A DNA stretch of 64,000 bases from NCBI GenBank assembly GCA_916610825.1, contig OU744446.1, positions 31,510,445-31,574,444 of the forward strand, read 5' to 3'. Both the position numbers and the translations under genes were made by a program. The DNA comes from Haliclystus octoradiatus. Its lineage: Eukaryota > Cnidaria > Staurozoa > Stauromedusae > Haliclystidae. Positions 2,593 to 57,761 of the stretch are shown piece after piece; position 1 is the first letter of the stretch; each line of letters begins with the position of its first letter. A model generated the notes under the pieces. The model worked only from the letters and a program-made list of their open reading frames with translations, searched no databases and was not told where the DNA came from.

Positions 2593-5500
2593 CTCATTGC
2601 TATACCACGAGGTCAGCAAAGGTTTACCATTGATATTCTGAGAATCATCATCTAAGGTGAAACCAACAGTGTGCTTCTCAAAGAAATCTTTACTATCGCT
2701 ACGTTCAAGAATCTCTTCAGAAAAGTATAAATGATTATCAGTCGTATCAGTATTTTGAAATGATAACGAACAATTAGTACCAGTAGAGCTTCCAGCACTA
2801 AACAACAAAAATATACAACAACATTAAATTGCTATTAGAAATTTGTTACATTAGATAAAAACATATTATTTAGTCAAGAAAGCACATGGTACACAAATAT
2901 ATTAATAATTAGATTTAATAGAGGACTTGAAATCATTTGAAATTCTGCGCACGGAATCTATTTTGTAGGGTTTTTCATTTAAACCCATAGCTGCGGTGGG
3001 TCATATTAACCCCCCTAAAATGTAGATTACTAAGAATTAATGGGGACTACTATACCGAATTGAAATCGAAAAGGATAAGTATTGCACCATCAGACTAAAA
3101 TTTATACAGGATTGATTGTTTGAATACACTAGCAACCCTCTGACAAATATACCGATGAAATCTCCTCGCGTTCAATAATTCGCTAGCTGCTGATGGCTTC
3201 CTTGTAGCAACAAAATCTTTTTATGGCAAAGTGATGGTATCAGCACTCAGGATTTGATCGATTACACTCGATGCTCGGCAGAAAGACCTATCAGGTCAAT
3301 ATTTACTCCTGGTCCATATGTTCATATAGCAGAGTGGATAGCGTACTAAAGTTTGCATTAAAGCCAGGAATGAAATGAACAACGTAATGGTAGTTCTGAA
3401 ATTAAATCTATTTCGAGGATGATTCATGCAGCAAAAAGTCAAAGTTTCTGTCCCAGTTGACGTCTTTGGACTTTATTGGATATTATATTAAAGAAGAAAT
3501 TTTCTTGTGTTACGTTATGGGATAAAATTCAGAAGAAAAGTTTGATCAAAAGTTAGGTTTCCAAATGGTAAAACTTCTCCTCGGACCTTTCTTGCAAAAA
3601 TAAGAGAAATCAACATTCGTAGAGCTGCGAAATTCAAACGTAGATATTATTATATTTTCAATAGTGTAAATATGTCAACATTTTGAAAAACTATAATGTT
3701 GAATTGTTTGCATTCTGTATTCTGTATTCTGTAATGCATTCTTTGTGGGAATTTTATCCCCAATTACTGTATATTTAACGGAAAATAAATAACCCTATAA
3801 AGCGGAATACAGATCAAACGGTTCATGAACACCGTTCATAAGCGGCTCGTGAACGTTAAATGGCACAATTTTTCATGAACCGTTCATGAACACTGATTAG
3901 TGATATTTGATGATCCCTAAAAATTTGAGTTACATGAATATTAAAATGATTAAATCACTTTATCAAATCAATCAAATTGTTGTTTACTTTATGGATTTCT
4001 AGATTGTTACACGAGAACTTGTGGATCTAAATTCTGGTGCCCACTGACAAGAGTGATGTTATCCCTTATTAATTAATATAGATCTACCTTTTTAAATACT
4101 TTCTTTACCAATCAAAGTTCATATTAAAAGTTTCATTTTAATTTATATTAAATATCAAGCCATGGAAAAAGTTGACTGGAAAATTCATTAGTTTGATAAA
4201 AATGAGAAGTTGGAGGGTAGAGTAACAAGCACCAGAAAGATTATCCAACGAGTCCTCACGATGGGATAGTACCCATATAAACATTCATATGTTTGATTGA
4301 CAAGACATTGTGATTTTAGCCTCGAAAGTCCTTGAAAAGTCCTTGAAGTAGTAAAGTCTACCATTCTTATAACTACCTATTGGTACAGCTTTCGCAATCC
4401 TTATGCCGATATCCAAAAGTGGACGATGAGCCACAAATTGAGAACTCAGATACCAACTAGAATAAAAGTAAAAATAGTTAATATCAATGCCTCACACTAT
4501 GAATAAAAAAGTTGTGAAAAAGTTGTGAAATTTAACAACTTTTTTCAATACTTTTTCACAAGTTAAAACACATGTAAACCGTGCAATATCATTGATCATT
4601 TCAAAATAGATATTGGGATTAGTACATTATGGTGGCTTACTGAAATAAACTTTAATCAGCCAGTATTTGATAAAGCATTGCTCTAGTAATCTGTGGAGTG
4701 CCGTATAATCCAAGCCTAGCATGCTGGCCCATCGAGGTGTGTCTATCTAAATTAAGCTGATATTAATCAAAACAAAAGTGTTCAAGAGAACCCATGTTTC
4801 AGATGCATACAATAGGATCGTCTATTGTTTTCAACAAGTATGTCACGTGTAACACTGTTAATGAATTCACAAATTATGATTTGTAGGAGCATATGGGAGT
4901 TTCTATTGTTGTTGTTGTTGTTACCAGTACTTGCTTGTTTGTTGGATACAATTTTCTTTTTAAATAGGAAAATTTAACATCTACTACGACTCAACTTGCG
5001 TTAGGTTAAATTGCATTATGGATACTTACAGAGCTTAAGCAATTATTGTTCATGATGAAATATGGATACAAACAGCATTCTGTTCGAGTTAAAGTCAACA
5101 TTGTTGTTTCGCCACGAACAAGAACTGTATTGTTGATATTGCCATTTTTAATATTCAACGATTTGGTTGTAATGTCTTCTGGGACAACAGAAACAGTGGA
5201 ATAAAATGATTTTGCAGACTAAAAAAAAAATAAAAAATTCATCAAACACGTTAGAATTAAGGAATCATCACCTTTTGAGAATATGTGCAGTCAAAACAAT
5301 ATGTTGTTGATGACTTGCTGAAAGGCTTTCCCAACACACAAGAACTTTAACATTGTTAAAATAGATAATAACTATAATAACCAGCTTTGTTATTTCATTG
5401 TTTCTATACATTGCTAAACTTTCAACAGTAATGCTGGATAATACAGGATTAACTTCAGGAGGCATTCACATTTTTTAAAAAATACGAATAAAATTTGAGA

Positions 5501-23500: not shown

Positions 23501-25906
23501 CCTGCGTGCATTTATAACAGAAGTTTTATCCTGGTCTATACGTACACCTCCTAGAAACCCCTCTATAGCCCACACGTACAATTATTATACATGTATTGTT
23601 GTATGCATTAAGCCCGGTTTCCACTTGACGAAAAATTCGCTGCAGCGAAAATTTCGCGGCTAAAAAGCCAAGTACGCATGCGCTGTGTGACGTTGCACAC
23701 ACTTTTGGACCGCGCAGGTTTCGCTGCAACTTTCGCTGAAGCGGAAAAAGTAGTTGGAATTGATCCTACTTTTTTGCGATTCGCTGCAGCGAAAAGTGAA
23801 TCAAACCAATGCAAATCATCTGAAAATGATGTTGTCATGACATTTTCAGCAAACAAGATGGCGGGATGAAATTTGTATTGCTTATTTGCCTGAAATTTGT
23901 AGCCTGTATTTTGTCAATTGTGAATCTCCATTCTCCAGTCACCAAATAAAGCAAACAAACACATGGTTTTCTCATGTGAGTATCGTTCTTTTCAATTTTT
24001 AGACCAATCATTACATAAAATTGTTCAAATGTCGAATGACATATTTTCGAAGAGAACGGTAAAAATATTCGATGTCGTAGATCTTCATTTCCTTTACGAG
24101 TAAATGAAACTCTCCTTTCTCTTTCCTCTCTTCAAATAATTTCCGGACCCAGAATGGTTTACTGTATTTTCTTGCATAAACTCTACGTCTTCTGAGCAGA
24201 AACATTTGAATAATTTGTAGTCGTGCAAGCAATACAACTTCCAAATTGACTGGTGCCATGATGGATTTTCATAAAATGTAGATTTTGGCGCGCGAAAAAA
24301 ATTTCAAGTGGAAATGAACCAGCGAAAATTTCGCCGCGAAAGTAGCCGCGAAAAATTCGCTGCAGCGAAAAATTTGCGTCTACTTTCGCGGCGAAATTTT
24401 CGCTGGTTCATTTCCACATAAAATTTGATTCGCGCGCCAAATTCGACATTTTATGAAAATCCATCATGGCACCAGTCAATCTGGAAGATGTATTGCTTGC
24501 ACGACTGCAAATTATTCAAATGTTTCTGCTCAAAAGACGTAGAGTATATGCAGGGAAATACAGTCAACGATTCTGGGTCCGGAAATTATTTGAAGACAGG
24601 AAAGAGAAAGGAGAGTTTCATTTACTCTTAAAGGAAATGAAGCTCTACAACATCGAATATTTTTACCGTTCTCTTCGTAAATACGTCCTTCGACATTTGA
24701 AAAGTTTTATATAATGATTGGTCTAAAATTGAAAAGAAGGATACTCACATGAGAAAAACATTGGTTCGCTGGAGAGGCTATGTGTTTGTTTGCGTTATTT
24801 GGTGACTGGAGATTCACAATTTGCAAAAATACAGGCTACAAATTCATCCCGCCATCTTGTTTGCTGAAAATGTCATGACAACATCATTTTCAATTGATTT
24901 GCATTGCTAGATTCACTTTTCGCTGCAGCGAATCGCAAAAAAGTAGGATCAGTTCCAACTACTTTTTTCGCTTCAGCGAAAGTTGCAGCGAAACCTGCGT
25001 GGTCCAAACTCGTGTGCAACGTCACACAACGCATGCGTACTCAGCATTTTAGCCGCGAAATTTTCGCTGCAGCGAATTTTTCGTCAAGTGGAAACCGGGC
25101 TTTAAGCACAATATAGATATCAATTATTGTGATTTATTCCCTAAATAAGAGTAGGTAGGCCTACAATTTCTCTGTCATTTAACCACTTCGAAATGATATA
25201 CAAATACAATGCTGAAGCAAACAGGTGTAACATCACATAGTAACCGTTTGAAACAAACATGTTGACCTTGCAATGGTTTTCATTGTATTTTCAAGTAACA
25301 ACGTTTACTTTAATCAACACTCTTTTATCATAATTTAGCAAACAAGAACTGCAAACAAAATAATATGAGAAGTTTACCAATGAAATGCAGTTTTAAGTGC
25401 ATGATGAAACAGAATCGTCAAAATGTTCTCAAGTTATGTAAGCTTTCCAAGGATATATCGACAACATTTACGTGAAAGATGAATTTACAAGGCGTTGAAA
25501 TCCAACCTAACGGGATTCAAATTTTAGCTGAGACACAGCAGTTGTAAACGTCTAACTAATGAGGTTTAGCGATCAAAAAGTAATATTTGTGTCACATTAC
25601 GATCAAATCAAGCTGCGACATACCACGCTTTTGTTATTTATTGGCACATAATAACAGGATAATAACCTGCTTACTAAGGCTTGCGAAAAGAAACGAAACG
25701 AAACGAAACCAAGCTATGGCTTTATAGGACTACTCATTTCTATGCGGAAGGCAGACGCTTTTTGATTATAAAGCCATACAAACGCTCCAATCAAGGGAAC
25801 CAGCAATATGATTACATTCGAGTATACTCATGCTTATTGACTGACTCACCTGTAAAATAAAGTTCTTCCACAGAAGCAAGCGAAATTGCAGAAATTTTCG
25901 CGCCAT
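2593..25906 (-). CDS. ABCA-class ABC transporter, ABCA3-like, N-terminal two thirds (25 exons; 3' part off the left edge)
   Basis: Family role: ATP-driven export or flipping of lipids across membranes. Exons, 5' to 3': 25850-25906, 21976-22049, 21841-21872, 21126-21230, 20057-20194, 18259-18430, 17560-17668, 16817-16927, 16266-16409, 15094-15188, 13944-14057, 12991-13191, 12190-12304, 11584-11688, 11222-11312, 10667-10857, 9927-10045, 9473-9619, 8845-8934, 7099-7386, 6763-6842, 5796-6082, 5030-5218, 4377-4456, 2593-2797. The sum is 3339 nt (1113 codons) and all phases agree. It starts [19 protein letters not shown], a typical ABCA N-terminus; the first extracellular loop is short, as in ABCA3. 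Then come the first membrane domain ([12 protein letters not shown]), PSYWCG, and NBD1 with Walker A GHNGAGKT (550-557), signature LSGGM (649-653), Walker B IIFLDEP (669-675) and LTTHFMDEAD. The second membrane domain begins [14 protein letters not shown]; the last exon ends TSWYSNE. The intron after 16817 has a GC donor. TMD2 remainder and NBD2 are outside the window. Confidence 0.93.
2798..4376. other. ABCA intron with dispersed repeats
   Basis: No gene recognised. 3480-3600 resembles the GGTCCRACAAAAG miniature family (see 47521-47690), and 3820-3900 holds a degenerate copy of the TTCATGAA family. Stop codons interrupt every frame. Confidence 0.5.
6310..6640. repeat. TTCATGAA-family miniature element, degenerate copy
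   Basis: AT-rich intronic stretch with repeated TTCATGAA-type palindromes and the linked GTTCATGAAC-like ends. It is diverged from the better copy at 21361-21550. No coding content is supported. Confidence 0.45.
7430..8010. repeat. TTCATGAA-family miniature elements, two adjacent degenerate copies
   Basis: Palindromic GTTCATGAAC units cluster at 7460-7530 and again at 7865-8005, with AAATGG-type linkers in places. They fall in the ABCA intron between the exons at 7099-7386 and 8845-8934. Nothing else is recognised between them. Confidence 0.5.
13225..13400. repeat. CAGTCAAACCTGT-family miniature element, degenerate
   Basis: Shares the internal string TTCTATTGAATCAA and a flanking GGTCAATTTATCTACC with the intact copy at 47864-48040. 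The ends are eroded. It abuts the 5' side of the ABCA exon at 12991-13191. Confidence 0.45.
14763..14826. repeat. Two-unit tandem repeat, about 30-bp period
   Basis: ACATTTGTGATATGCTCTCT plus a TCGATATGT tail occurs twice in direct succession with no visible difference, which suggests a recent slippage or duplication event inside an ABCA intron. Confidence 0.8.
14873..15053. repeat. CAGTCAAACCTGT-family miniature element
   Basis: Starts CAGTCAAA after a TA dinucleotide and carries the family's internal units (CTATACAGCGG, GTCTATAGTGGTCA). Its right end is diverged. TA flanks and CAGT termini fit a Tc1/mariner-superfamily non-autonomous element; it is 41 bp downstream of an ABCA exon boundary in plus coordinates. 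Confidence 0.6.
15880..16110. repeat. TTCATGAA-family miniature element, degenerate
   Basis: A run of TTCATGAA and TCATGAAC units with AAATGGCAC linkers, inside the ABCA intron left of the 16266-16409 exon. The termini cannot be placed. Confidence 0.5.
17119..17300. repeat. GGTCCRACAAAAG-family miniature element
   Basis: Begins GGTGTCCGACAAAAGGTTCA and ends with GGATCTAGGATTCCAGGAGG. Matching segments (GGAATCCTAGAG near one end, TTCTTCTGAATTTGCTC inside) recur at 47521-47690 and, more diverged, at 12470-12620, 45240-45395, 48094-48245 and 60505-60620. No coding content; superfamily unassigned. Confidence 0.6.
18632..18663 (+). other. tRNA-Leu-complementary primer-binding-like site
   Basis: TGGTGTCAGATGTGGGATTT followed by GAACCCACGCC is complementary to the 3' end of an animal tRNA-Leu: CCA tail, acceptor strand TGTCAGA, then a whole T arm. 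A CCA complement is expected in an LTR-element primer site, not in a tRNA gene. The match runs past the usual 18 nt. The base just upstream follows AACA, a possible LTR end, but no paired LTR or coding sequence was found around it. Confidence 0.6.
18696..18823. repeat. Small foldback element
   Basis: Imperfect inverted repeat: AAATATTAAATACTTTCT on the left pairs with AGAAAGTGTTTAATATTT on the right, and further in GGGTTACATAAACAC pairs with GTGTTTATATACCC. It is typical of a miniature inverted-repeat element. Intronic in ABCA. Confidence 0.6.
19619..19804. mobile_element. TA-flanked miniature inverted-repeat element (Tc1/mariner type)
   Basis: Left end CAGTGTAACTTGCTCAAGTG and right end CACTTAAGCGGGTTACACTG form TIRs, with TA at 19617-19618 and 19805-19806 as target duplication. 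186 bp, no ORF. A partial relative is visible near 20320 (ACAGTGGAACTCTCTTAAAT). Confidence 0.75.
21361..21550. mobile_element. TTCATGAA-family miniature foldback element, most complete copy
   Basis: About 190 bp, almost entirely palindromic. Left end TAACCCCTGCAAAAAAACAG, right end CTGTTTTTGCAGGGTTA. Inside, the 10-mer GTTCATGAAC is repeated several times with the linker GTTAAATG and its complement CATTTAAC. Eroded relatives are scattered through the window: 3820-3900, 6310-6640, 7430-8010, 9740-9830, 12030-12150, 15880-16110, 17310-17420, 19850-19935, 45480-45600, 45735-45850, 49070-49265 and 63180-63270. No coding content. Confidence 0.75.
22050..23610. other. ABCA intron 1, right of exon 2: no gene seen
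   Basis: AT-rich sequence with a C13 homopolymer at about 23187-23199 followed by CGGGTATTGTTCTCGTTGGC. A diverged relative of the sequence right after it (CGTTGGCGTAAATGT, later AAAACAGATAC) lies at 43330-43540 in a UBA5 intron. Nothing else recognised. Confidence 0.5.
24011..24259 (-). CDS. Harbinger transposase N-terminal exon-like ORF, left arm
   Basis: 82 residues beginning [15 protein letters not shown]. The segment [19 protein letters not shown], followed by KEM and [10 protein letters not shown], matches the N-terminal region of HARBI1/PIF-type transposases as I remember it (W-V-R-x-I/L-F ... G-E-F/Y ... Y-F-R-x-L-R). The catalytic DDE domain is absent and no continuation was found, so this is a fragment retained inside a foldback element. 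Confidence 0.6.
   Translation of the reverse strand: MAPVNLEVVLLARLQIIQMFLLRRRRVYARKYSKPFWVRKLFEERKEKGEFHLLVKEMKIYDIEYFYRSLRKYVIRHLNNFM
24466..24714 (+). CDS. Harbinger transposase N-terminal exon-like ORF, right arm
   Basis: 82 residues, same length as the left-arm ORF and differing at about 13 positions, many conservative (K/R, D/E, L/V, L/I, N/D). Both stay open. The motif block [16 protein letters not shown] is kept. It has no catalytic domain, so by itself it could not act as a transposase. Confidence 0.6.
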   Translation: MAPVNLEDVLLARLQIIQMFLLKRRRVYAGKYSQRFWVRKLFEDRKEKGEFHLLLKEMKLYNIEYFYRSLRKYVLRHLKSFI

Positions 25907-27177: not shown

Positions 27178-28413
27178 TCAAACAAAGAGCCGGGATTTAA
27201 CAGAGTCTAATTGCGTGTTGAGTGTAGGCTTGATCTGCCGAATCGCAAGCATTTCATGAATGAGGCAATCAAAACGGTTCTTACATTTTTTAATAACTCG
27301 AAAGTTTTGATGACAATCGCGGACGGTAATACCATGTGAATAGCGAAGATGTGATCCAATGGCCGATCCAGTATGTCCGTCAATGCGTTGATGTAAGTGT
27401 TGGCAAGTGAAGCCAACATAAACACGCAAGTCACATTGAAAACAATAAACAACGCATTGACGAGACAAGAGCGGTGGCTTTGGCTCACGTAATCGCAAAT
27501 CATCTACAATTTTCCTAGTGTTGAAAACCGGTCTGATAACTTGGCCGATATTACCACTAAGATTAGATAGCTGCTTTTTAAGTGAATTTGCTGAAATTTG
27601 ATCTTTGAAAGGCAAAGTAATATTGATGTCATTTTTACTTCTGCTTGCGACTGGCAAATCAAGTGTACCTTCAACACGCTTCTTTCTAAATTTATTTACG
27701 TAAAACTCAATTAATTGACTAGGATACTTTAAGTCTAAAAATCTATTACGCACTATAGTGCACTCTTCATCAAAGTTTTTATCGGTTGATGAAAGCCGAT
27801 TGGCACGATCTAGCATTGTAATCAGTAGTGCCTTCTTATAATTTCCATCAACATGACTCTGATAATGTAGTAATAATCCATTATCAGTAGGTTTATGATG
27901 AACACCAGTTTCAACTGTCTTATTAATAAATTTCATTGAAACGCCAAGAAAAGGTAATTTGTTATTCTCTGCGATTTCCATAGTGAATTTTAAAGCAGGA
28001 TGTTCATTGTTTAACTTATGTAGTAATTGATTAGCATCGTATAGGTTTGGCATAATTGTTAAAGTATCATCGACATAGCGATAATAATGTTCAAGAAGAT
28101 CATTCTTTTCCTTCAGTCTATCTTCAATGTGACACATAAAAACATTTGCCATTAAGGGACCCAAAGGGGAACCCATTGCCACGCCATCTATTTGTTCGAA
28201 CAGCTCTCCTTGAAAAGTAAACAACTGATCTTTTGTGGCAATTTGAAGTAATTCTTTTAGATCATCTTTTGTTAAAGCTAGATCGTGTGTTTCATTAAAC
28301 CAATTATCTGAGAAAGCTTTATCAACTAAAATATCTATGGTTTCATCCACAGGAACGTTTGTGAACAGGGACTCGTCGACGCAAATTTTTTTTCCGTAAC
28401 CCATGGGAAGCAA
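27178..28413 (-). CDS. Penelope-like reverse transcriptase with GIY-YIG domain, N-terminally truncated
   Basis: 411 codons open from the annotated start, which is probably not authentic because the family RT begins further upstream. Seen: SLFTNVPVDETI (RT motif region), GVAMGSPLGPLMANVFM, the catalytic YRYVDD, then a C-terminal domain with YCFQCDLR, YVGFTCQHLHQRIDGH and RFDCLIHEMLAIRQIKPTLN, the GIY-YIG pattern of Penelope-like elements. Compared with its partner it lacks two codons just before YVGFT. Known role: target-primed insertion, with the endonuclease nicking DNA. It ends DSVKSRLFV and stop. Confidence 0.88.
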   Translation of the reverse strand: MLPMGYGKKICVDESLFTNVPVDETIDILVDKAFSDNWFNETHDLALTKDDLKELLQIATKDQLFTFQGELFEQIDGVAMGSPLGPLMANVFMCHIEDRLKEKNDLLEHYYRYVDDTLTIMPNLYDANQLLHKLNNEHPALKFTMEIAENNKLPFLGVSMKFINKTVETGVHHKPTDNGLLLHYQSHVDGNYKKALLITMLDRANRLSSTDKNFDEECTIVRNRFLDLKYPSQLIEFYVNKFRKKRVEGTLDLPVASRSKNDINITLPFKDQISANSLKKQLSNLSGNIGQVIRPVFNTRKIVDDLRLREPKPPLLSRQCVVYCFQCDLRVYVGFTCQHLHQRIDGHTGSAIGSHLRYSHGITVRDCHQNFRVIKKCKNRFDCLIHEMLAIRQIKPTLNTQLDSVKSRLFV

Positions 28414-28692
28414 TTTGCCTCATTTCCAGGTGTTGGTGGTCTCGCTCTCGCTGTTAACAAAGCGCGCGTATGTTCGCTTTCTTTTGCATCTTTGAAAATT
28501 TCAACAACACGAATGTAGATCATTTTCAAGCAACAATTTTTTTTCCGTAACCCATGGGAAGCAATTTGCCTCATTTCCAGGTGTTGGTGGTCTCGCTCTC
28601 GCTGTTAACAAAGCGCGCGTATGTTCGCTTTCTTTTGCATCTTTGAAAATTTCAACAACACGAATGTAGATCATTTTCAAGCAACATTATCA
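28395..28692 (-). repeat. Two 151-bp tandem units at the 5' side of the left Penelope-like copy
   Basis: The block containing GCAAATTGCTTCCCATGGGT through GCTTGAAAATGATCTACATT occurs twice in succession. The identical duplication is present in the right copy (31951-32252), so it predates the split of the two copies. Confidence 0.8.
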
Positions 28693-29325
28693 ATGACAAT
28701 TTCATAGTTCATTTTCAAACAACTTATTGTTATTTAAGAATTTTAACTTGTCGTTAAACAACACAAATACTTCATCAATTTAAAACAACGGAATGGAAGG
28801 TGAGCGACAGTCAAAATATTTATGTTAGCTCTCTTCATTGCTGGTAACCAATATGACACAAATGTTATCGGTTTAAAAGCTAGGTTAGGACAGTAAAAGT
28901 TGCTGATATAATAATTATGTTTTAAAATTTGGAATACTTGAAACGAATCCCCGTTTGATATCTGTCGTTTTCGTATACTGACATTTTACTAATCGAATTA
29001 GTTACTCTGAATTTCTTGACTAGGCCCTATTTGTTGATGGCTCATGGAACATTTGTATACTTTACATTTGTAGTCTTTACTTTATATATTGTATACCGAA
29101 TTAAAGGTTATTTGAAAAAAATATTTATTTGGCTTGTACTAGGTACCCTATTAGAATATAGCATTGTGGCACGTTCATATTACCTTACCAACGGATACAA
29201 TAAAATGTCTATATTATAATTTAAGTCATGTTAATTTCTAGTGAATGTGCTTTATCATATGTGACTATTTCACCACTTTTTACCCTTTATCTGGACTATA
29301 ATAATATCTTATTCAGACTCAACAG

Positions 29326-31585: not shown

Positions 31586-31898
31586 ATAAGTAAATAAGAA
31601 ACGGGATAACCTTTCAAATTCAAACCTAATTAAAAGGCCTGCTACACCAATACTCTATGCCCAGTTATAAAGCTATGAAAATTATCATTTGTCAGAAAAG
31701 TCTGAGTTGAACAGATGTCTAAAATTGTCTAAATTGAGAATGAGAAGCAGGCCAAAACGACAGATGAAACAGAGACACACGTTTGAAGTAGCCTATGAAA
31801 GCATTCGAAACCTATCAACATTCTAATCTAAATCGAATTTGGACTCACCTTTTTTCGTTATCTGGCTGATTTCTTGATCAGGAGTTGTTAAGTAGTTA

Positions 31899-33443
31899 AA
31901 TAACGATAAGTTGTTTGAAAATGAACTATGAAATTGTCATTGATAATGTTGCTTGAAAATGATCTACATTCGTGTTGTTGAAATTTTCAAAGATGCAAAA
32001 GAAAGCGAACATACGCGCGCTTTGTTAACAGCGAGAGCGAGACCACCAACACCTGGAAATGAGGCAAATTGCTTCCCATGGGTTACGGAAAAAAAATTGT
32101 TGCTTGAAAATGATCTACATTCGTGTTGTTGAAATTTTCAAAGATGCAAAAGAAAGCGAACATACGCGCGCTTTGTTAACAGCGAGAGCGAGACCACCAA
32201 CACCTGGAAATGAGGCAAATTGCTTCCCATGGGTTACGGAAAAAAAATTTGCGTCGACGAGTCCCTGTTCACAAACGTTCCTGTGGATGAAACCATAGAT
32301 ATTTTAGTTGATAAAGCTTTCTCAGATAATTGGTTTAATGAAACACACGATCTAGCTTTAACAAAAGATGATCTAAAAGAATTACTTCAAATTGCCACAA
32401 AAGATCAGTTGTTTACTTTTCAAGGAGAGCTGTTCGAACAAATAGATGGCGTGGCAATGGGTTCCCCTTTGGGTCCCTTAATGGCAAATGTTTTTATGTG
32501 TCACATTGAAGATAGACTGAAGGAAAAGAATGATCTTCTTGAACATTATTATCGCTATGTCGATGATACTTTAACAATTATGCCAAACCTATACGATGCT
32601 AATCAATTACTACATAAGTTAAACAATGAACATCCTGCTTTAAAATTCACTATGGAAATCGCAGAGAATAACAAATTACCTTTTCTTGGCGTTTCAATGA
32701 AATTTATTAATAAGACAGTTGAAACTGGTGTTCATCATAAACCTACTGATAATGGATTATTACTACATTATCAGAGTCATGTTGATGGAAATTATAAGAA
32801 GGCACTACTGATTACAATGCTAGATCGTGCCAATCGGCTTTCATCAACCGATAAAAACTTTGATGAAGAGTGCACTATAGTGCGTAATAGATTTTTAGAC
32901 TTAAAGTATCCTAGTCAATTAATTGAGTTTTACGTAAATAAATTTAGAAAGAAGCGTGTTGAAGGTACACTTGATTTGCCAGTCGCAAGCAGAAGTAAAA
33001 ATGACATCAATATTACTTTGCCTTTCAAAGATCAAATTTCAGCAAATTCACTTAAAAAGCAGCTATCTAATCTTAGTGGTAATATCGGCCAAGTTATCAG
33101 ACCGGTTTTCAACACTAGGAAAATTGTAGATGATTTGCGATTACGTGAGCCAAAGCCACCGCTCTTGTCTCGTCAATGCGTTGTTTATTGTTTTCAATGT
33201 GACTTGCGTGATGCAAGTTATGTTGGCTTCACTTGCCAACACTTACATCAACGCATTGACGGACATACTGGATCGGCCATTGGATCACATCTTCGCTATT
33301 CACATGGTATTACCGTCCGCGATTGTCATCAAAACTTTCGAGTTATTAAAAAATGTAAGAACCGTTTTGATTGCCTCATTCATGAAATGCTTGCGATTCG
33401 GCAGATCAAGCCTACACTCAACACGCAATTAGACTCTGTTAAA
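31899..33443 (+). mobile_element. Penelope-like element, right copy, 5' portion (interrupted at its 3' end)
   Basis: Inverted partner of 26992-28738. After 33443 the element is split by the outer transposon and resumes at 41518. Removing the insert and one TSD copy restores the reading present in the left copy (GTTAAATCCCGG). Confidence 0.88.
31951..32252 (+). repeat. Two 151-bp tandem units at the 5' side of the right Penelope-like copy
   Basis: GCTTGAAAATGATCTACATT recurs at 31951 and 32102. The second unit runs into the RT ORF, so the ORF start lies inside the repeat. Mirror image of the array in the left copy. Confidence 0.8.
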
Positions 33444-33467
33444 TATGAAGCGGAATCGGGGTCATAA
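32220..33467 (+). CDS. Penelope-like reverse transcriptase with GIY-YIG domain, right copy, C-terminus replaced by insertion
   Basis: 415 codons, nearly identical to the left copy. RT motifs GVAMGSPLGPLMANVFM and YRYVDD are kept, and the endonuclease segment reads DASYVGFT, probably the ancestral form. The last codons (YEAESGS) come from the TIR of the outer transposon; the original ending lies at 41518. Both catalytic domains are otherwise intact. The N-terminal part of the RT is missing. Confidence 0.88.
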   Translation: MLPMGYGKKICVDESLFTNVPVDETIDILVDKAFSDNWFNETHDLALTKDDLKELLQIATKDQLFTFQGELFEQIDGVAMGSPLGPLMANVFMCHIEDRLKEKNDLLEHYYRYVDDTLTIMPNLYDANQLLHKLNNEHPALKFTMEIAENNKLPFLGVSMKFINKTVETGVHHKPTDNGLLLHYQSHVDGNYKKALLITMLDRANRLSSTDKNFDEECTIVRNRFLDLKYPSQLIEFYVNKFRKKRVEGTLDLPVASRSKNDINITLPFKDQISANSLKKQLSNLSGNIGQVIRPVFNTRKIVDDLRLREPKPPLLSRQCVVYCFQCDLRDASYVGFTCQHLHQRIDGHTGSAIGSHLRYSHGITVRDCHQNFRVIKKCKNRFDCLIHEMLAIRQIKPTLNTQLDSVKYEAESGS

Positions 33468-33585: not shown

Positions 33586-33593
33586 AAATTTCA
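33586..33593. repeat. Left 8-bp target duplication of the inner transposon
   Basis: AAATTTCA directly precedes the TAGCCTGCG terminus and recurs exactly at 40467-40474 after the other terminus. Confidence 0.9.
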
Positions 33594-33727
33594 TAGCCTG
33601 CGTGCAGACTCAAAACAAAACTTCTCTAAAGTGTAGAGTCTGCGCAATACCGGAAATGGCCCTGTACTGCTGACTCAGCGCAGTATTGGAAAACTAGTGA
33701 CCCAATACATTTCGACCTATTTGTCAC

Positions 33728-36277
33728 ATGGGTCATGAGCAACAAGCTTACATCAAAACACTCTTCGTGACCAATATTTTCAAAATGGCGTTGCTAAATT
33801 CTAGTCGTTTGAATAAATTGGAGTTCGATGAGAACAAATTTCAAGAAGCTATAGGTATTGCATTGATGTATTTTCCACTGGAAAAGTTTTACCCGGATCA
33901 AATCTTGGCGTGGAGACAATTTTTCGGTGGTAAAAATATTTATTTTAGTGCTCCGACTGGTTTTGGGAAGTCAATGATATTTCAGTGTTTACCAATTATC
34001 GCCGATCATCTTCAGGGCAGTTATGGAACAAGTATTTTACTGGTTATTTGCCCGTTGATAAGTCTCATGCACGATCAAGTAAGGTATTTGAATAGTATCA
34101 GTATATCGGCTGCTGCAATACACAGCGAGCAAGATAAAACAGTTTTATCAGAGATCGAAAAGGGTTTTTTTCGAATTGTATATGCCTCACCAGAATCAAT
34201 GTTATCATTAAATAGATGGAGACAACTTCTTTCTTCCGACATATTTAGAGAAAACTGCATCGGGGTTGCTGTAGACGAAGCACATTGCCTGAGTGAATGG
34301 TAAGTTTTGAATGGAAGACAGCCTATCGCTGTGGTAACTTTTTATATTTTATTACGTCGTCCTTTTGTGCTAGGCCTACAATAAAAGAACTCTCGAATAG
34401 CAGTAGGCTACTGTCATCTGTTGCTACACTTTTACGATATACCTGCAATGTTCTACTGTTGAATAGTTTACCCTGTAATAATTAACTAACTTATTTTACC
34501 TAGTCACTGGTTTCTACGTAGGAATATGCATTATTTTGAAGATCATTATTACAGTTTAATCTAAAAATTTTGAACTCACGATAATAATAACATCTGATTA
34601 GTGATCACCATCCCTATATTCTAACATTCATTCATGTTTTAATACGTAACTACAATGGTGTTTATGAATGTAAACATTATGCATTGTGTGACTCCTTTCA
34701 CTATGCACAGTGAAACTCAAAGAATTTTGGCCAACCAACCTTGTGAAGTTTGGTGATTGATTTAGGTAAATCCCATTGAATTGCCATCCAGTAGGCCAAC
34801 CTGCATTTTGCTTTGTTTGTTTTGTTCTAATTCCCAATTTATTTATTTTTGTAGGGGATATGCTTCCAGAAAGAATAAACCAGCATTTCGGGAATTATAT
34901 AGGAATTTAGGACAGCTTCGCTCTCTCCTGGATAGCTCAATTAGATTTGCTGTTTTTACTGCTACGGCAACTCCAGCAATAAAGTACAGGATATTTGACA
35001 CTTTGGGTTTGAGCGATAGCAATTCCTACTGTATACAGAAAAGTCCTGTAAAGAATAATATATCTTACTGCGTGCAGTATGTTGATAAAGATATGCCCAT
35101 GTCAGAAATTTTCAATCCACTAATACAAGAGTTTTCAGACTGTGATGCATACATAGAGAGAACAATAATTTTCTGTCAAACAAGAACTCAATGCGCTTTG
35201 ATCTGGAGAATGTTTCTCCTTAATTTGGATGATAATTTCTATGTTGGCACGAACAACCCGGAGAACCGCAGAGTTGAAATGTTTCATGCTGGTAGTCCTC
35301 CAAAGGTTAAAGAGCACGTACAGAATGAGATGACAAAATGTGGCAGCCATTTACGCTTGCTAATTTGTACAATTGCTTATGGAATGGGAATGGATTGCAA
35401 AGAGGTGCGTCGAATCATACATTTCGGTCCCTCTTCATCGATTGAAGCCTATGTACAGGAAACTGGGAGAGCCGGACGTGATGGGCTTCCAACAGTATGC
35501 TACCTATTACACAATGGTTTACTATCTAGTCATTCTGATGATGCAATGAAATACTATGTCCAGCTCACCAAATGCAGAAAAGAGAATATTATTTCTCATT
35601 TCCCCAGCACTGATGCTATTGGAGAAGCAATATGTTGTTGTTGCGATATTTGTTCATCATCTTGCATGTGTCACAATGATCAATGTCTGTTTGATCCTAG
35701 TTATTTCTGTGGGCGTTTACCTGTACATTGCAAGGCTGACGAAAAACAATTTATGAGGAAAAGGGATGTTAAAGATGAACAGAGAGAACATATAAAACAG
35801 CTTCTTGAAATTTATTTGACATATTTAAAATCAAGAAAATCATCATCATTGACCCACAATTATATGTGGTATGAATTTAATGAGTTTCATATTAGGCAAA
35901 TTCTAAACTCATGTGATGTAATCTTCGATGTAAGTGATGTTTACCAGTTTATGGAAACGTGGAGATATGGTCATGCGTGCAAAGTCCTCACAATATTGTC
36001 TGAAGTATTCGGTGATATTGCTATAGATGATATTCCTGCTTCAGCATTGGAAGAAACACATTGTGCAAATTATGGAGATGATGAAATTCAACCTGAGTGG
36101 AGAGACATTAGAGATGATTCATTTATTCACGTTGATTGTGAAGATTCTGCAATGTGTGCATCTGATACTGAAACATTGAACTGTTCAGAATCGACTGTTA
36201 TGAGCCTCGGAAGTGTTTTGGATCACTCTACAATCAAACCTTCATTAATGAGAGATGCTGGAAATTTTGAAGTCTAA
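33728..36277 (+). CDS. RecQ-type SF2 DNA helicase encoded by the inner transposon
   Basis: Exon 1 33728-34299, exon 2 34855-36277 (donor GTAAGT, acceptor TTTTTGTAG); the junction restores SEWGY, the usual RecQ block after DEAH. 664 residues, or 645 from the second ATG at 33785. Motifs: APTGFGKS (75-82, Walker A), DEAH (183-186), TATAT (226-230), RTIIFCQTR (293-301), IAYGMGMD (364-371), QETGRAGRDG (392-401), then a cysteine cluster ICCCCDICSSSCMC (450-463) at the place of the RecQ zinc-binding subdomain. The C-terminal ~180 residues are acidic and unrecognised. Known family role: ATP-dependent 3'-5' DNA unwinding. Inference: it helps mobilisation or replication of the element. It lies 74 bp inside the left TIR. 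Confidence 0.92.
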
Positions 36278-36559
36278 GAAGTTTTATATAAATTTGGTTA
36301 TATGTATAATTCTAATTATGAGAAATATTGACTATCCAAAGTTACTCAACCTGGAGAATATAGTTTAATATTGGAATATCTCATGCACATAGTTTTTACA
36401 ATGTTATCATTATTGATCATATTATTTAGTTTCACGTATGAGTACTATTCTACATTTGTGAAGGAGCAACTATATGGAGAGTTATTTTAAAAGTCATTAC
36501 TTAGTATTGTTCACATTGCTTTTGAATGTAGTCATGTCGTTACTGAACTTGGAATCACT
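36278..36559. other. Convergent intergenic spacer of the inner transposon
   Basis: 282 bp between the two stop codons; AT-rich, presumably holding both 3' UTRs and polyadenylation signals. No feature stands out. Confidence 0.5.
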
Positions 36560-39500
36560 TTACCTGGCTGTCTTTTGCAGGTAAATTGAAGATTTATGGT
36601 TGTCTATCCATTTGTATAAATTGTGTAAATCTAGATTATGTAATAGGTCATCTTCTACAGAACAGTAATATTTATAATCTCGTCCTTCAGAATTGTAAAT
36701 CATTGCAGTCTGATTCACCAGTTCCTTAACAATTTTTTTCAGATCCTTCTCTGTTGATGTCATAACATGTCTACCAGATTTTCTAATTACATGGCTGACG
36801 TTGTCAAAATTGTCAAGCAAAGCCTTATTGTATGATAGAGCCTTACAGTAACGATCTACCGCATTCTTATTAGTAGCATTTGGCCCAAGTTTCCGTATTA
36901 TTGTCTTCATGAAGTTGTTGTAATGCTCTAGAGCAAGATCTATAGGGATATTACCACCAGCTCCGAATTTTGCTTTGTGAAAACGGTTCCATATCAGTTT
37001 GTGCGCATCCCTTGCAGATAACATAGCGTACACTTGGCACATTATATAAAGTGCCTCTACAGCATACTTCTGAGACCTTTGACCATCTTGTTTTAAGTAA
37101 GGCAGCATAAACTTCCAGCTCCTCAAAACTCGTGCACCATCTCCATTACTCACAGCATCAAAAAAATTCATCACAATCATACCATATTTTAAAAATGAGC
37201 ATTGATAATTGTACATGTCATCTGCTAATCTCTTATTTGCCTTTTTCTCTACTTTGCGTAAGCCTGAATGTTTTTTTTCATGTTCTTGACGTATGATCCC
37301 ATCATGTTTGAAACTTGCAGAACAATCAGCCTCGCGACACTTGTACCTACCATCTTCAGTTCTTGGATTGTTTTGAATTAACCAGTCTTCGTACTCCTGC
37401 TTATTGCGCAATCTGTCAAGATTTTCTGCGGGAAATAAAAACTGGTCAACAACTTTTCCACATAAGTTGGTAAAAAAGGTGGCTTCTGCATTTTCATTAT
37501 TAAACTTTGGTAAGTCTTCAGAGGATGGTATTTGGTTAATTTCAGTCAAATTTAATAAGGTCATTACTGCAGCTATAACTCTGGCTTCTACTTCAATTAA
37601 AATAAACTTTTTACACGCATCATGTTTGTGTCGAACGTCATCTGACACATTCTTACGATTTATCAAGACTTTATCACTGAATAAGGTGCATTTGTCTCCT
37701 GTAGATTTGTAATTATAAAAGTGATCATAGCCAAACTGAAATAAAATAAAATTTTAAGATTATCAACACTTGCTTTTAGGTAGATCTGAAAATCTGAAAT
37801 CTCAGAAACTTGTCATACTAACGTACTTGTAAAAACTTCATTCCACCATGAAAGTCTGCAATTTCAAAATGAAGGCCTTCTCTTCTCTCCTCTGGTGTAA
37901 ATCCATGTGCCAACTGCAATAGGGTGTTGACTCCCCTCTCTACAGTTAATTGATCAGCTTGGATTGCCTAATTTAATACAATTAATGTTTTCTATTAAAA
38001 CAGGAATGGTTTACATATGCGCCTCACAGATAAGTTGGACAAGCAGCAAATCAGTAGCATCTAATGGCTTGGCACTTTCATATCACAATCCAATGCTACT
38101 GTTTTGCTGTTTGTCTTATTTGCATTGCATTCCTCACCTGTTCGCCGTACTGACGTCGGTCACCATTTCCTGTGAAAGGTACATAACTGTTGTGTAGTTT
38201 CTGAATGATACTGCTCATCCCACCTGCCTCATTTTCGTTTTCATAAATTACACCTAAAAATGTCTGTCAATATAAGTATGGTAAGTTAGTAAATGTAGCT
38301 GAAATAATACAAAGCAGTTGCATTGCCTAGGACGGACCCTCTCATATTTCTCTTTGAAGGAATGTTGTAAAGATCAGTTGTATGTATAGATGCAGATTGT
38401 GAAATAAATTATATTTGAATAGGCAGTTATAACATTTATTAGATATCAATATTTAATACTTAACTGTGTCTCAAACAATAGTAATTAAAGATGAAAAGTT
38501 CACATAGGTAAATCATTTACTTGTGAAACATAATTTGTTGGTTTCATTATTTGATTTATATATATTGCTGATGATCAAGCTATTATACAAGGGGGTCATG
38601 GTGTAATTCTGATGTAAGCCCCCCATCCTGTTTAGGCTCTGGGCATAATTAGGACCTATAAAAATCATTAAAAATTACTCACTGTATCAGTAGGTTGAAA
38701 ACTTTCTGATGAATACGGGTGTTTGATATGGGCGTGAACAAATTTTTCAAATGGTTTTAAACATACTATTCTTTTTGCAGCAATACGTGCTATCAGAGAT
38801 ACATAATTTTGATGCTGGAGCTTGTAATCATTGTCTGAAGGAAGGCATTTGCTGTTGTCTAAATTGTTGATTGTGTTTTGAGGAGGAGTTTCAGATGACA
38901 AATGTTGAGCATGTACTCTATCACCAACAGATAATACAGTAACCCAGTGGGAATCAACATTTTGATGTTCTTCTGTCATTGAGTGGACGTTGGTTCTAAA
39001 GTCAAGATTATCAAATGACAGTTTGTATCCTTCTATTGATTCTCCAATGGGCTCTTTGTTTTCGAGTTGCTTGCTCTTTTTCTCCATAATGTCAATAATC
39101 TTTTTGTCATGTTCAATCCCAAACTCATCCAACTTCTTCAGCATAAAAGGATGGGACACAACCAGTTTAAAAATTTTGAGACGCAATAGTGTCCCCTATA
39201 TGGAGACAAAAAATAGTTCACTATTATTTGAAACAGTACAAGTCAGCATAATAAATGCAATCAACGTGAAAAGAGAATTGTAATTACCGTCAGCCCAGAA
39301 TGTTGCAAGATGATTGTAACAAGCAACTGCAATGCTGTCATGTATGGAGATCTATTTTTTAAACATATGGCAGCAGCCATGCATACTGCAGGCTTCCAAA
39401 GGAGATTGTTGGATACATCTTTTGTTGGTTTGAAGGAAGCAACTTTCAAAATTGACTGTAGCAGGGGACAACGTACTTTCATTTCTTTGTCCAGAGCTTC

Positions 39501-40262
39501 AATTGAGAAATTTGAGAAATCCTCTTTGCTAGTGTTTCTCAGACAGCTAGGCTTCTTTCTGGAACACATGGCAATACATTCCTCATTGATTTCTCTCAAG
39601 GCAAACTTTAATATTTCATTTCTCATTTTCTCATGCTTCCAAACAGCCCGTGCTATTTGTTGAAATGTACCACGACAGAGCATCTTTCCAATGGAGTTCA
39701 TTTCAGGTTTTAAAAGTTTTTCTATTGTTTTGGAAGGCCATTCAATCCTAACATAAACTTTTGTCTCCTTTAAAATTCCATTAGTCTCTGTAACCTTTTT
39801 GCCATTATTTTTAGGCACATCAGGGTTATTGATGATAATAACTTTTTTAGGCTGACATGTACCAACACCAACACCATTGTATTTTCTCTTAGTTGGTGTA
39901 CTGGTCAAACCCTCCTCCAATAGCTTACTCCAATTTTTGCAGTCTGATGTATCATTTAGCTCAGCCACACGTCTTCTCAAAGTAGAATTGGAAGAACCAC
40001 GATAGAGTGATAAAACTTTTTCTTCAAGCTCTCCAACTTTTTTATAAGTAAATTTGATACGTTTCAAAATATCTACACAACTTTTACAAATGTATTTAGA
40101 TGAGTTATCGTCAACCAAATAACCTAGAAATTCCAGCTCTTCTTTTGGATTGATAGCAATACTCTCCGAAATAACTAAATTTCTATCTGACTTTTTATCG
40201 AGTATAATATTACAAAGAATACAGTGAAAAATGTTTTGCGCTTGAGTCTCAAATGTCGCCAT
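36560..40262 (-). CDS. DUF6589-type protein, probable transposase of the inner transposon
   Basis: Five exons: 39288-40262, 38679-39195, 38138-38253, 37827-37967, 36560-37735; phases agree, giving 974 residues. Seen: four-cysteine zinc site C14-x2-C17 and C59-x2-C62 (ZAD-like); a conserved block EWPSKTIEKLLKP ... GKMLCRGTFQQIARAVW; QADQLTVERG (D541); IADFHGG (D574, H576); a C2H2 finger C716-x4-C721-x13-H735-x3-H739; and a tract SNGDGARVLRSWKFMLPYL ... KYAVEALYIM (E810) that I recognise from DUF6589-domain proteins of animals. That domain has no assigned function known to me. Inference: it is the transposase, because it lies inside perfect TIRs with the helicase, and D541/D574/E810 could be a DDE triad. 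The start ATG lies 144 bp inside the right TIR. Confidence 0.85.
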
Positions 40263-40405
40263 GATGCTTCGACATTTTGATCACGAAATTGCGAAATGCT
40301 CATTGAAACCATAACAACGCGCCACAGCGAGTCTTCGGTTATTGAAATCGAGACATAAAAAAGGGTTTTTAAAAACCGCGCTGGGTTTCGGAGTACAAGC
40401 TTTTA

Positions 40406-40466
40406 TCCGGTATTGCGCAGACTCTACACTTTAGAGAAGTTTTGTTTTGAGTCTGCACGCAGGCTA
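40406..40466. repeat. Right 61-bp TIR of the inner transposon
   Basis: Exact reverse complement of 33594-33654; ends GTCTGCACGCAGGCTA, followed by the duplication AAATTTCA. Related but diverged ends occur at 44406, 44955 and 54782. Confidence 0.95.
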
Positions 40467-41517
40467 AAATTTCAGGGCTCTTCAGGTCAAATTTTAAATG
40501 GCTTTAGTTTAACGGGATAATTTCTGGAAAATACAATGATTATTTAGTTTTATAAGACTTATAAGAGGTCTGGATTGTAAAATATTCAAGCTTATATGGA
40601 TATGGAAAACGATGGCATTGATGTTTGCAGTTTATTATTGAGAAACATATAAATTATTATCGGAACATGTGATTGAAGGTTGACAGACAGACTCGGAAAA
40701 AGCAAAATCAAAATCCATGAAATATAGAAGCAGCAGACACATATTCAAAATATTGGACATTTTGTAGTCTTGCAGTAGTGGGACTTTTTCATTCTGATCA
40801 ATGACATCAATCATATTGTCCTAGATTCTTAGATTTTCCGAAGAAAAGTATTCGAGACAACGTTTAAAAACACCATACAAGTACTTCACATGGTGTTAGG
40901 GTGCATCGGTGTTATCAGTATTTCATGGATTTTGATGAAGATGATGTTGCATTTTCATTTTACTACATAATAGCTATAATAATAATAGCTATAAATCTTT
41001 CTCAATTAATGACATAAATGATATTAATAAATTAATAAACTGCAAACATTTCCATTGTTTTTCCGTCATATAAGCGTGAGTATTCCACAATCCAGACCTC
41101 TGATAGAATTGATAACAACCATTTGAAAACGAACAATAAAGTAAGCAATGAATGCTAAGCCTGAATCTGACAGTAATTAAAATCCAGTGAAGATAATACA
41201 AACATAAATCGAAAACCTTCCTCTTGGTAATAAAACACCTTGGTCAAAAATGAGAGACAATTTGATAGTTGCGCAGATGGCGACGCAGACGGCAGCGCAG
41301 ACGGAAGCGCAGACGACGGAATGAAGTTCAACAACGAAGCAAGATCCAACGACGACTCCGCAGCTCAGAATATTGACCCCGATTCCGCGCGAAATTAATT
41401 GCGCAGATGGCAGCGCAGATGACGACGACATGGAAACACGGAATGAAATTCAACGACGACACGGAAATCCAACGACGGCACGAACTTTTGGAATTATGAC
41501 CCCGATTCCGCTTCATA

Positions 41518-42708: not shown

Positions 42709-57761
<15,053 letters not shown>

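Follow-up and report, generated by a model that had tools for sequence, protein, structure and literature searches.

A RecQ helicase in Academ transposons was on record by 2013, in a statement credited to Kapitonov et al. (PMC3627910, cited passage). In the available part of PMC10045372, the helicase-bearing lineage AcademH (Kojima 2020) is described from animals and fungi, with target site duplications (TSDs) of 9-10 bp, and AcademX, the other Academ lineage cited there, bears a nuclease and has TSDs of 3-4 bp. Citations of the AcademH paper appear in the accessible text of PMC10799480, PMC8290104, PMC12210899 and PMC9970103. RecQ helicases also occur in KolobokH / Kolobok-1_CCri, KolobokH being reported only from fungi in the passage concerned (PMC9587614). 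The repeated RecQ helicases of fungi are mainly subtelomeric genes in the excerpts of PMC4522978 and PMC5576322, and were rejected as a counterpart of the element described here; a whole-word look through PMC11071193 did not find the word Academ.

We analysed a 64,000-nt stretch of Haliclystus octoradiatus DNA (GCA_916610825.1, OU744446.1), here called the window, in which an intact DNA transposon pairing a DUF6589-type protein with a RecQ helicase had been predicted from the letters alone. The novelty implied by this original prediction is not supported, as RecQ in Academ was in print by 2013 and AcademH has been described; the published descriptions of Academ/AcademH, in the parts cited above, largely cover a helicase-bearing superfamily of this kind. 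The host is an animal: its genome contains 41 matches to the wnt family, counted exon by exon, a family known only from animals.

The element, its copies and their target sites

The 6873-bp element at 33594-40466 (Table 1) is a genuine DNA transposon that has moved recently. Its perfect 61-bp terminal inverted repeats (TIRs), the exact 8-bp duplication and the two convergent spliced genes, a helicase gene on the plus strand and a DUF6589 gene on the minus strand, were all found as predicted. The duplication of AAATTTCA is exact over 8 bp, the ninth flanking base being different, and no gene beyond these two was recognised within the element.

Table 1. Positions of the transposon, its parts and neighbouring features in the window
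Feature	Position	Strand	Evidence
ORF of a Penelope-like element a short way upstream of transposon (reverse transcriptase; GIY-YIG weak)	32220..33467	+	Profile match
Left target site duplication, AAATTTCA	33586..33593		Flank reading
Whole transposon, 6873 bp	33594..40466		TIRs and TSD; empty paralogous sites
Left TIR, 61 bp, starts TAGCCTGCG	33594..33654	+	Perfect match to right end
Internal inverted repeat of left TIR (GTGCAGACTC, 33602-33611 / GAGTCTGCGC, 33636-33645; one mismatch)	33602..33645	+	Arms change in concert in two further families
RecQ-type superfamily 2 helicase gene, 664 aa	exons 33728-34299, 34855-36277	+	GT-AG splice model; profile and structure-sequence matches
Gene for 976-aa DUF6589 protein, putative DDE transposase	36560..40262; exons 40262-39288, 39195-38683, 38263-38138, 37967-37827, 37735-36560	-	GT-AG splice model; Pfam
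Right TIR, 61 bp	40406..40466	-	Perfect match to left end
Matching internal inverted repeat of right TIR	40415..40458	-	Repeat search of TIR
Right target site duplication, AAATTTCA	40467..40474		Flank reading
Second TIR end of same family, solitary, from decayed or short copy	54768..54783	-	Exact 16-mer

The element inserted into a 300-bp target that is itself a repeat. When the flanks were joined with a single copy of the duplication and compared with the genome, 43 matches were obtained, 40 of them over the whole or nearly the whole 300 bp; two of these empty sites are 100% identical over the 300 bp and a third is displayed as 100% through rounding. The empty sites are unoccupied copies of a repeat adjoining the Penelope-like ORF, and their match to the joined flanks shows that the element landed in this repeat. 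The ORF matches reverse transcriptase at E=1e-7, its GIY-YIG match falling under the cut-off. Two Penelope-like copies lie in the window in inverted orientation (27195-28737 and 31896-33444; arms of 1315 and 227 nt, 100% complementary), each with 151-bp tandem duplications, and the transposon sits just past the tail of the right-hand copy. Elsewhere in the window there is a spacerless inverted repeat of 363 nt, 92% complementary (24000-24725), and a very long trinucleotide repeat (52665-53609) whose translation is polyisoleucine, polyasparagine or polythreonine according to frame. The solitary TIR end (Table 1) lies near sequence that, by eye, looks like a ThiF/UBA5-like gene.

The 16-base terminus of the element occurs 813 times (430 + 383) in the 262-Mb genome, and its reversed control not at all. 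The search for other copies that had been proposed yielded eleven more with all or most of the gene content, flanked by 8- or 9-bp TSDs where these were read, so that there are twelve gene-bearing copies, counting that in the window, beside gene-less short ones. Copies with these TIRs therefore do not consistently lack the two genes, as they would if the prediction were wrong. Over the stretches fetched, ten of the eleven are 99.6-100% identical to the window copy; the other, on C10, is 97% identical over its aligning part and contains stops. The copy on C5 matches the window element only as far as element base 4325, and that at C1:8.05 Mb is ~300 bp shorter and is missing part of the DUF6589 gene. 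At C4:24.00 Mb a helicase of 93-95% identity, interrupted by stops, stands without a DUF6589 match. The genome holds several hundred further TIR ends, and the pairs sampled from these are short copies without genes. Some mini-copies of 75-79 bp are palindromic and have exact 8-bp duplications (L005, L020, L021, also L015 and L016); almost the whole of each of the first three can be aligned with the outer TIR arms, and they resemble near-minimal mobile units.

Both ends could be read in ten of the twelve gene-bearing copies, those on C5 and C10 being left out. The TSD is 8 bp long in four (window, C6:24.75, C8 and C1:8.05) and 9 bp in six (C4, C2, C6:15.2, C6:16.5, C1:39.46 and C1:39.71); none is 10 bp long. 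All ten true end pairs share 8 or 9 bp, whereas among 90 mismatched pairs none shares as many as 7 bp, and the duplications are beyond chance. We also read 23 short copies, all on contig C1 and hand-picked as the clearest end pairs, with nested or ambiguous pairs and partnerless ends excluded. Exact duplications are present in eleven of them (8 bp in eight, 9 bp in three), duplications with one mismatch in seven (two of 8 bp, four of 9 bp and one of 7 bp), and five have no duplication. As 8- and 9-bp TSDs are both found among the copies, one family produces both lengths. The empty sites, the near-identical copies and the TSDs in all ten measured copies bear out the prediction of an intact transposon.

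The two genes and their pairing

The predicted five-exon splice model of the DUF6589 gene has no internal stops and gives 976 residues, replacing the predicted length of 974. DUF6589 (PF20231) is the sole confident Pfam match of the protein, covering residues 438-908 (E=4.1e-32; 111.8 bits against a gathering cut-off of 27), and Pfam finds no nuclease domain in this protein or in the helicase. PDB sequence searches gave no match, and an AF2 prediction of the last exon only, from a five-row alignment, reached a pLDDT of 38; neither showed an RNase H-like fold. Among viral contigs 169 pattern matches to DUF6589 were obtained, of which none was confirmed; the domain was not found in phages, and none of the papers searched mentions it.

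The residue comparison covers up to seven rows, all from the H. octoradiatus genome. Its invariant acidic residues include D543 (aDqLtvER), D576 (aDFH, a D-x-H) and E855 (LEHy), which we propose as candidate catalytic D, D and E; the choice is a matter of judgement because E548, E568, D599, D778, D784, D851, D896 and D916 are equally invariant. The D543-D576 spacing of 33 residues is short for a DDE core. Between D576 and E855 a zinc-finger-like C-C-H-H stretch can be seen by eye. In the relatives on C7 and C4 an intron likewise separates residues 496 and 497, and the last exon starts at the matching place.

The helicase gene likewise has a predicted splice model without internal stops, and a second in-frame ATG at 33785, 57 bases downstream, could serve as an alternative start. 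The protein matches the Pfam families DEAD (E=4e-19) and Helicase_C (E=4e-15). Its best NCBIfam match is recQ_fam (E=1e-59), at 202 bits under the curated cut-off of 219.8, and its best match among solved structures is WRN, followed by bacterial RecQ, RECQ5, RECQ1, RECQ4 and BLM. By eye it contains GFGKS, DEAH (as DEAHC), QETGRAGRDG and a zinc motif, CxxCDxC, which we take to be superfamily 2 and zinc-binding cysteine motifs. Host RecQ genes sit elsewhere in the genome; their identity to the element helicase is 28-30% in N-terminal pieces and 28-53% in short stretches of C-terminal motifs. In a tree in which two of the host RecQ rows are less than half filled, four element helicases separate from three host RecQ genes and human WRN with support of 100/100. 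The phylogeny called for by the prediction thus places the element helicases apart, and this split gives no sign of a recent capture from the host.

A search for PF20231 returned 24 genome matches, and one for the helicase at least 84 (67 of 142 candidates scored). Within 10 kb of 19 of the 24 DUF6589 matches there is a helicase, in 19/19 cases downstream and convergent (one 7.3 kb off), in a count that used 70 of the 84 helicase matches and excluded 14 short or weak ones; the chance expectation is ~0.005 per DUF6589 match. For the remaining 5/24 there is no helicase match within 10 kb. Eleven of the 24 are near-copies of one family, and the independent evidence consists of eight diverged places. 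The claim that the family carries its own helicase is upheld by this arrangement. The pair is ancient and the helicase a stable part of the system; capture of a helicase alone is rejected in view of the retention of the gene pair across diverged families. The pairing in 19/24 places, diverged families included, also makes the DUF6589 protein very probably the transposase, as had been proposed. A likely function would thereby be given to a Pfam family without an assigned one, some members of which may carry orphan host gene annotations.

In the diverged families that share the arrangement, the proteins are only 31-66% identical by exon. A second family, at C1:28045949-28052896, has a perfect 53-bp TIR (TAGCCTGCGTCACAGACC...) and, in its one copy, the 9-bp TSD TATAACCGG; by exon, identity to the window copy is 38-43% for its helicase and 31-48% for its DUF6589 protein. 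Its DUF6589 reading contains in-frame stops and, close to the end, a frame change; introns may account for some of these. A third family is represented by copies at C7:15.00 and C4:23.58 Mb that are 99% identical to each other; its helicase-side end starts TAGCCTGCGCGCAGACCC, and a search for the other end at C4:23.58 Mb did not find it. There is also a distant DUF6589 group (L047, L052, L053 and L055). Its member at C2:21.09 Mb has a convergent helicase ~29-30% identical (52% in one short piece), with broken reading frames and no matching TIR found, and its three other members have no helicase match within 10 kb.

Between the window and C7 copies, the proportion of synonymous differences exceeds that of non-synonymous ones in the helicase (0.79 and 0.36) as well as in DUF6589 (0.79 and 0.31), which indicates that purifying selection has acted on both genes. 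The C7 and C4 copies have too few differences to judge (2 synonymous and 5 non-synonymous in the helicase, 0 and 11 in DUF6589).

Proposed mechanism and rival readings

Each TIR contains an internal inverted repeat (Table 1). The corresponding repeats are TCACAGACC/GGTCTGTGC in the second family and CGCAGACCCAA/TAGGGTCTGCG in the third, one mismatch being allowed, and the two arms change together from family to family. Shuffled TIRs reached the repeat length in 3/300 cases for the window family, 18/300 for the second and 2/300 for the third, so that the repeat is weak in the second family taken alone. We read it as a pair of opposed putative sites at which one protein would bind; the alternative is a hairpin.

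The need for the helicase is constrained by the copies at C1:39.46 and C1:39.71 Mb (L107 and L108), which lie 251 kb apart. Both carry the same insertion in the Walker A region of the helicase, SINE-like in our reading from its tRNA-like head, but their flanks differ, as do their 9-bp TSDs; this version, with its helicase already broken, has therefore moved at least once. As gene-less short copies have moved too, a helicase is not required in cis, and either acts in trans or is dispensable. Its long conservation argues against its being dispensable over evolutionary time. With several near-identical open-frame copies, the family offers a test bed for why some DNA transposons retain a helicase.

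We consider it likely that the element belongs to the Academ/AcademH type and is an autonomous DNA transposon with TIRs, a DUF6589 transposase and a RecQ-type helicase as an accessory acting in trans. We infer movement by cut-and-paste with DDE chemistry, in which the DUF6589 transposase would bind the ends, probably via the paired opposed motifs within each TIR, cut the element out and reinsert it at target cuts staggered by 8 or 9 bp. The helicase, supplied in trans, would most likely help to process or repair the DNA intermediates that arise on excision or insertion, a step to which we give about an even chance; aid in opening the palindromic ends comes next. The 8-bp TSDs and the lack of 10-bp ones, the empty PDB searches and low-pLDDT model of DUF6589, its other equally invariant acidic residues, the D543-D576 spacing, the moved helicase-broken copy and the 5/24 DUF6589 matches without a helicase count against this account. 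The TSD lengths, 8/9 bp against the 9/10 bp cited for AcademH in PMC10045372, would also fit a superfamily apart from Academ, namely a separate DUF6589 transposase lineage that reads paired inverted TIR motifs and acquired its RecQ independently of AcademH and KolobokH. RecQ is indeed reported in another superfamily, in the KolobokH passage of PMC9587614, and the likeness to Academ is one of described features. We nevertheless think such a separate origin unlikely, because Academ is the lineage described with RecQ and because AcademH, in the passages cited, occurs in animals and fungi with near-equal TSDs of the same one-base variability.

The low pLDDT of the last DUF6589 exon, which shows no catalytic fold, and the existence of gene-less short copies with TSDs, which means that movement in trans occurs, could be taken to suggest that DUF6589 is not a transposase and that both genes are cargo of an element moved by an unlinked enzyme. 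This is very improbable in our estimate: no other gene is recognised in the element, 19/24 DUF6589 matches have the same arrangement even at 31-66% identity by exon, both proteins are conserved and a helicase alone is not known to have strand-transfer chemistry. RecQ helicases are normal in hosts, and two host genes might lie between inverted repeats by chance. We give this almost no weight, and it is already contradicted by the empty site at 100%, by scattered near-identical copies each with its own TSD, and by host RecQ genes that lie elsewhere, are only 28-30% / 28-53% identical and branch separately.

Comparison with known systems

Kolobok elements duplicate TTAA on insertion, unlike the present element, whose TSDs are 8-9 bp long and of varied sequence, and KolobokH is rejected on this ground. 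What the element shares with KolobokH, as described in the cited part of PMC9587614, is a RecQ helicase in a DDD/E transposon, the DDD/E assignment being putative here. From AcademX, in the passage cited (PMC10045372), it differs in having a helicase in place of a nuclease, none being found by Pfam, and TSDs longer than 3-4 bp. Zisupton/KDZ and hAT have the 8-bp TSD in common with it, but a helicase is not mentioned for them in the available text of PMC12730594, and DUF6589 is the only confident Pfam match of the protein here.

The closest likeness is to AcademH. Both are TIR DNA transposons found in animals with a transposase and a helicase, RecQ being stated for Academ; in both the TSD varies in length by one base, and 9 bp is common to the two. 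The difference lies in TSDs of 8 or 9 bp here and of 9 or 10 bp in the AcademH description cited. This likeness is drawn from published descriptions, as excerpted. By this analogy the element would work like AcademH and is probably a member of it. The kind of transposon is already known, and the one-base difference in TSD range makes this a variant of it; new here are the link to DUF6589, the 8/9-bp duplications, the covarying inverted repeats within each end and a broken-helicase copy that still moved.
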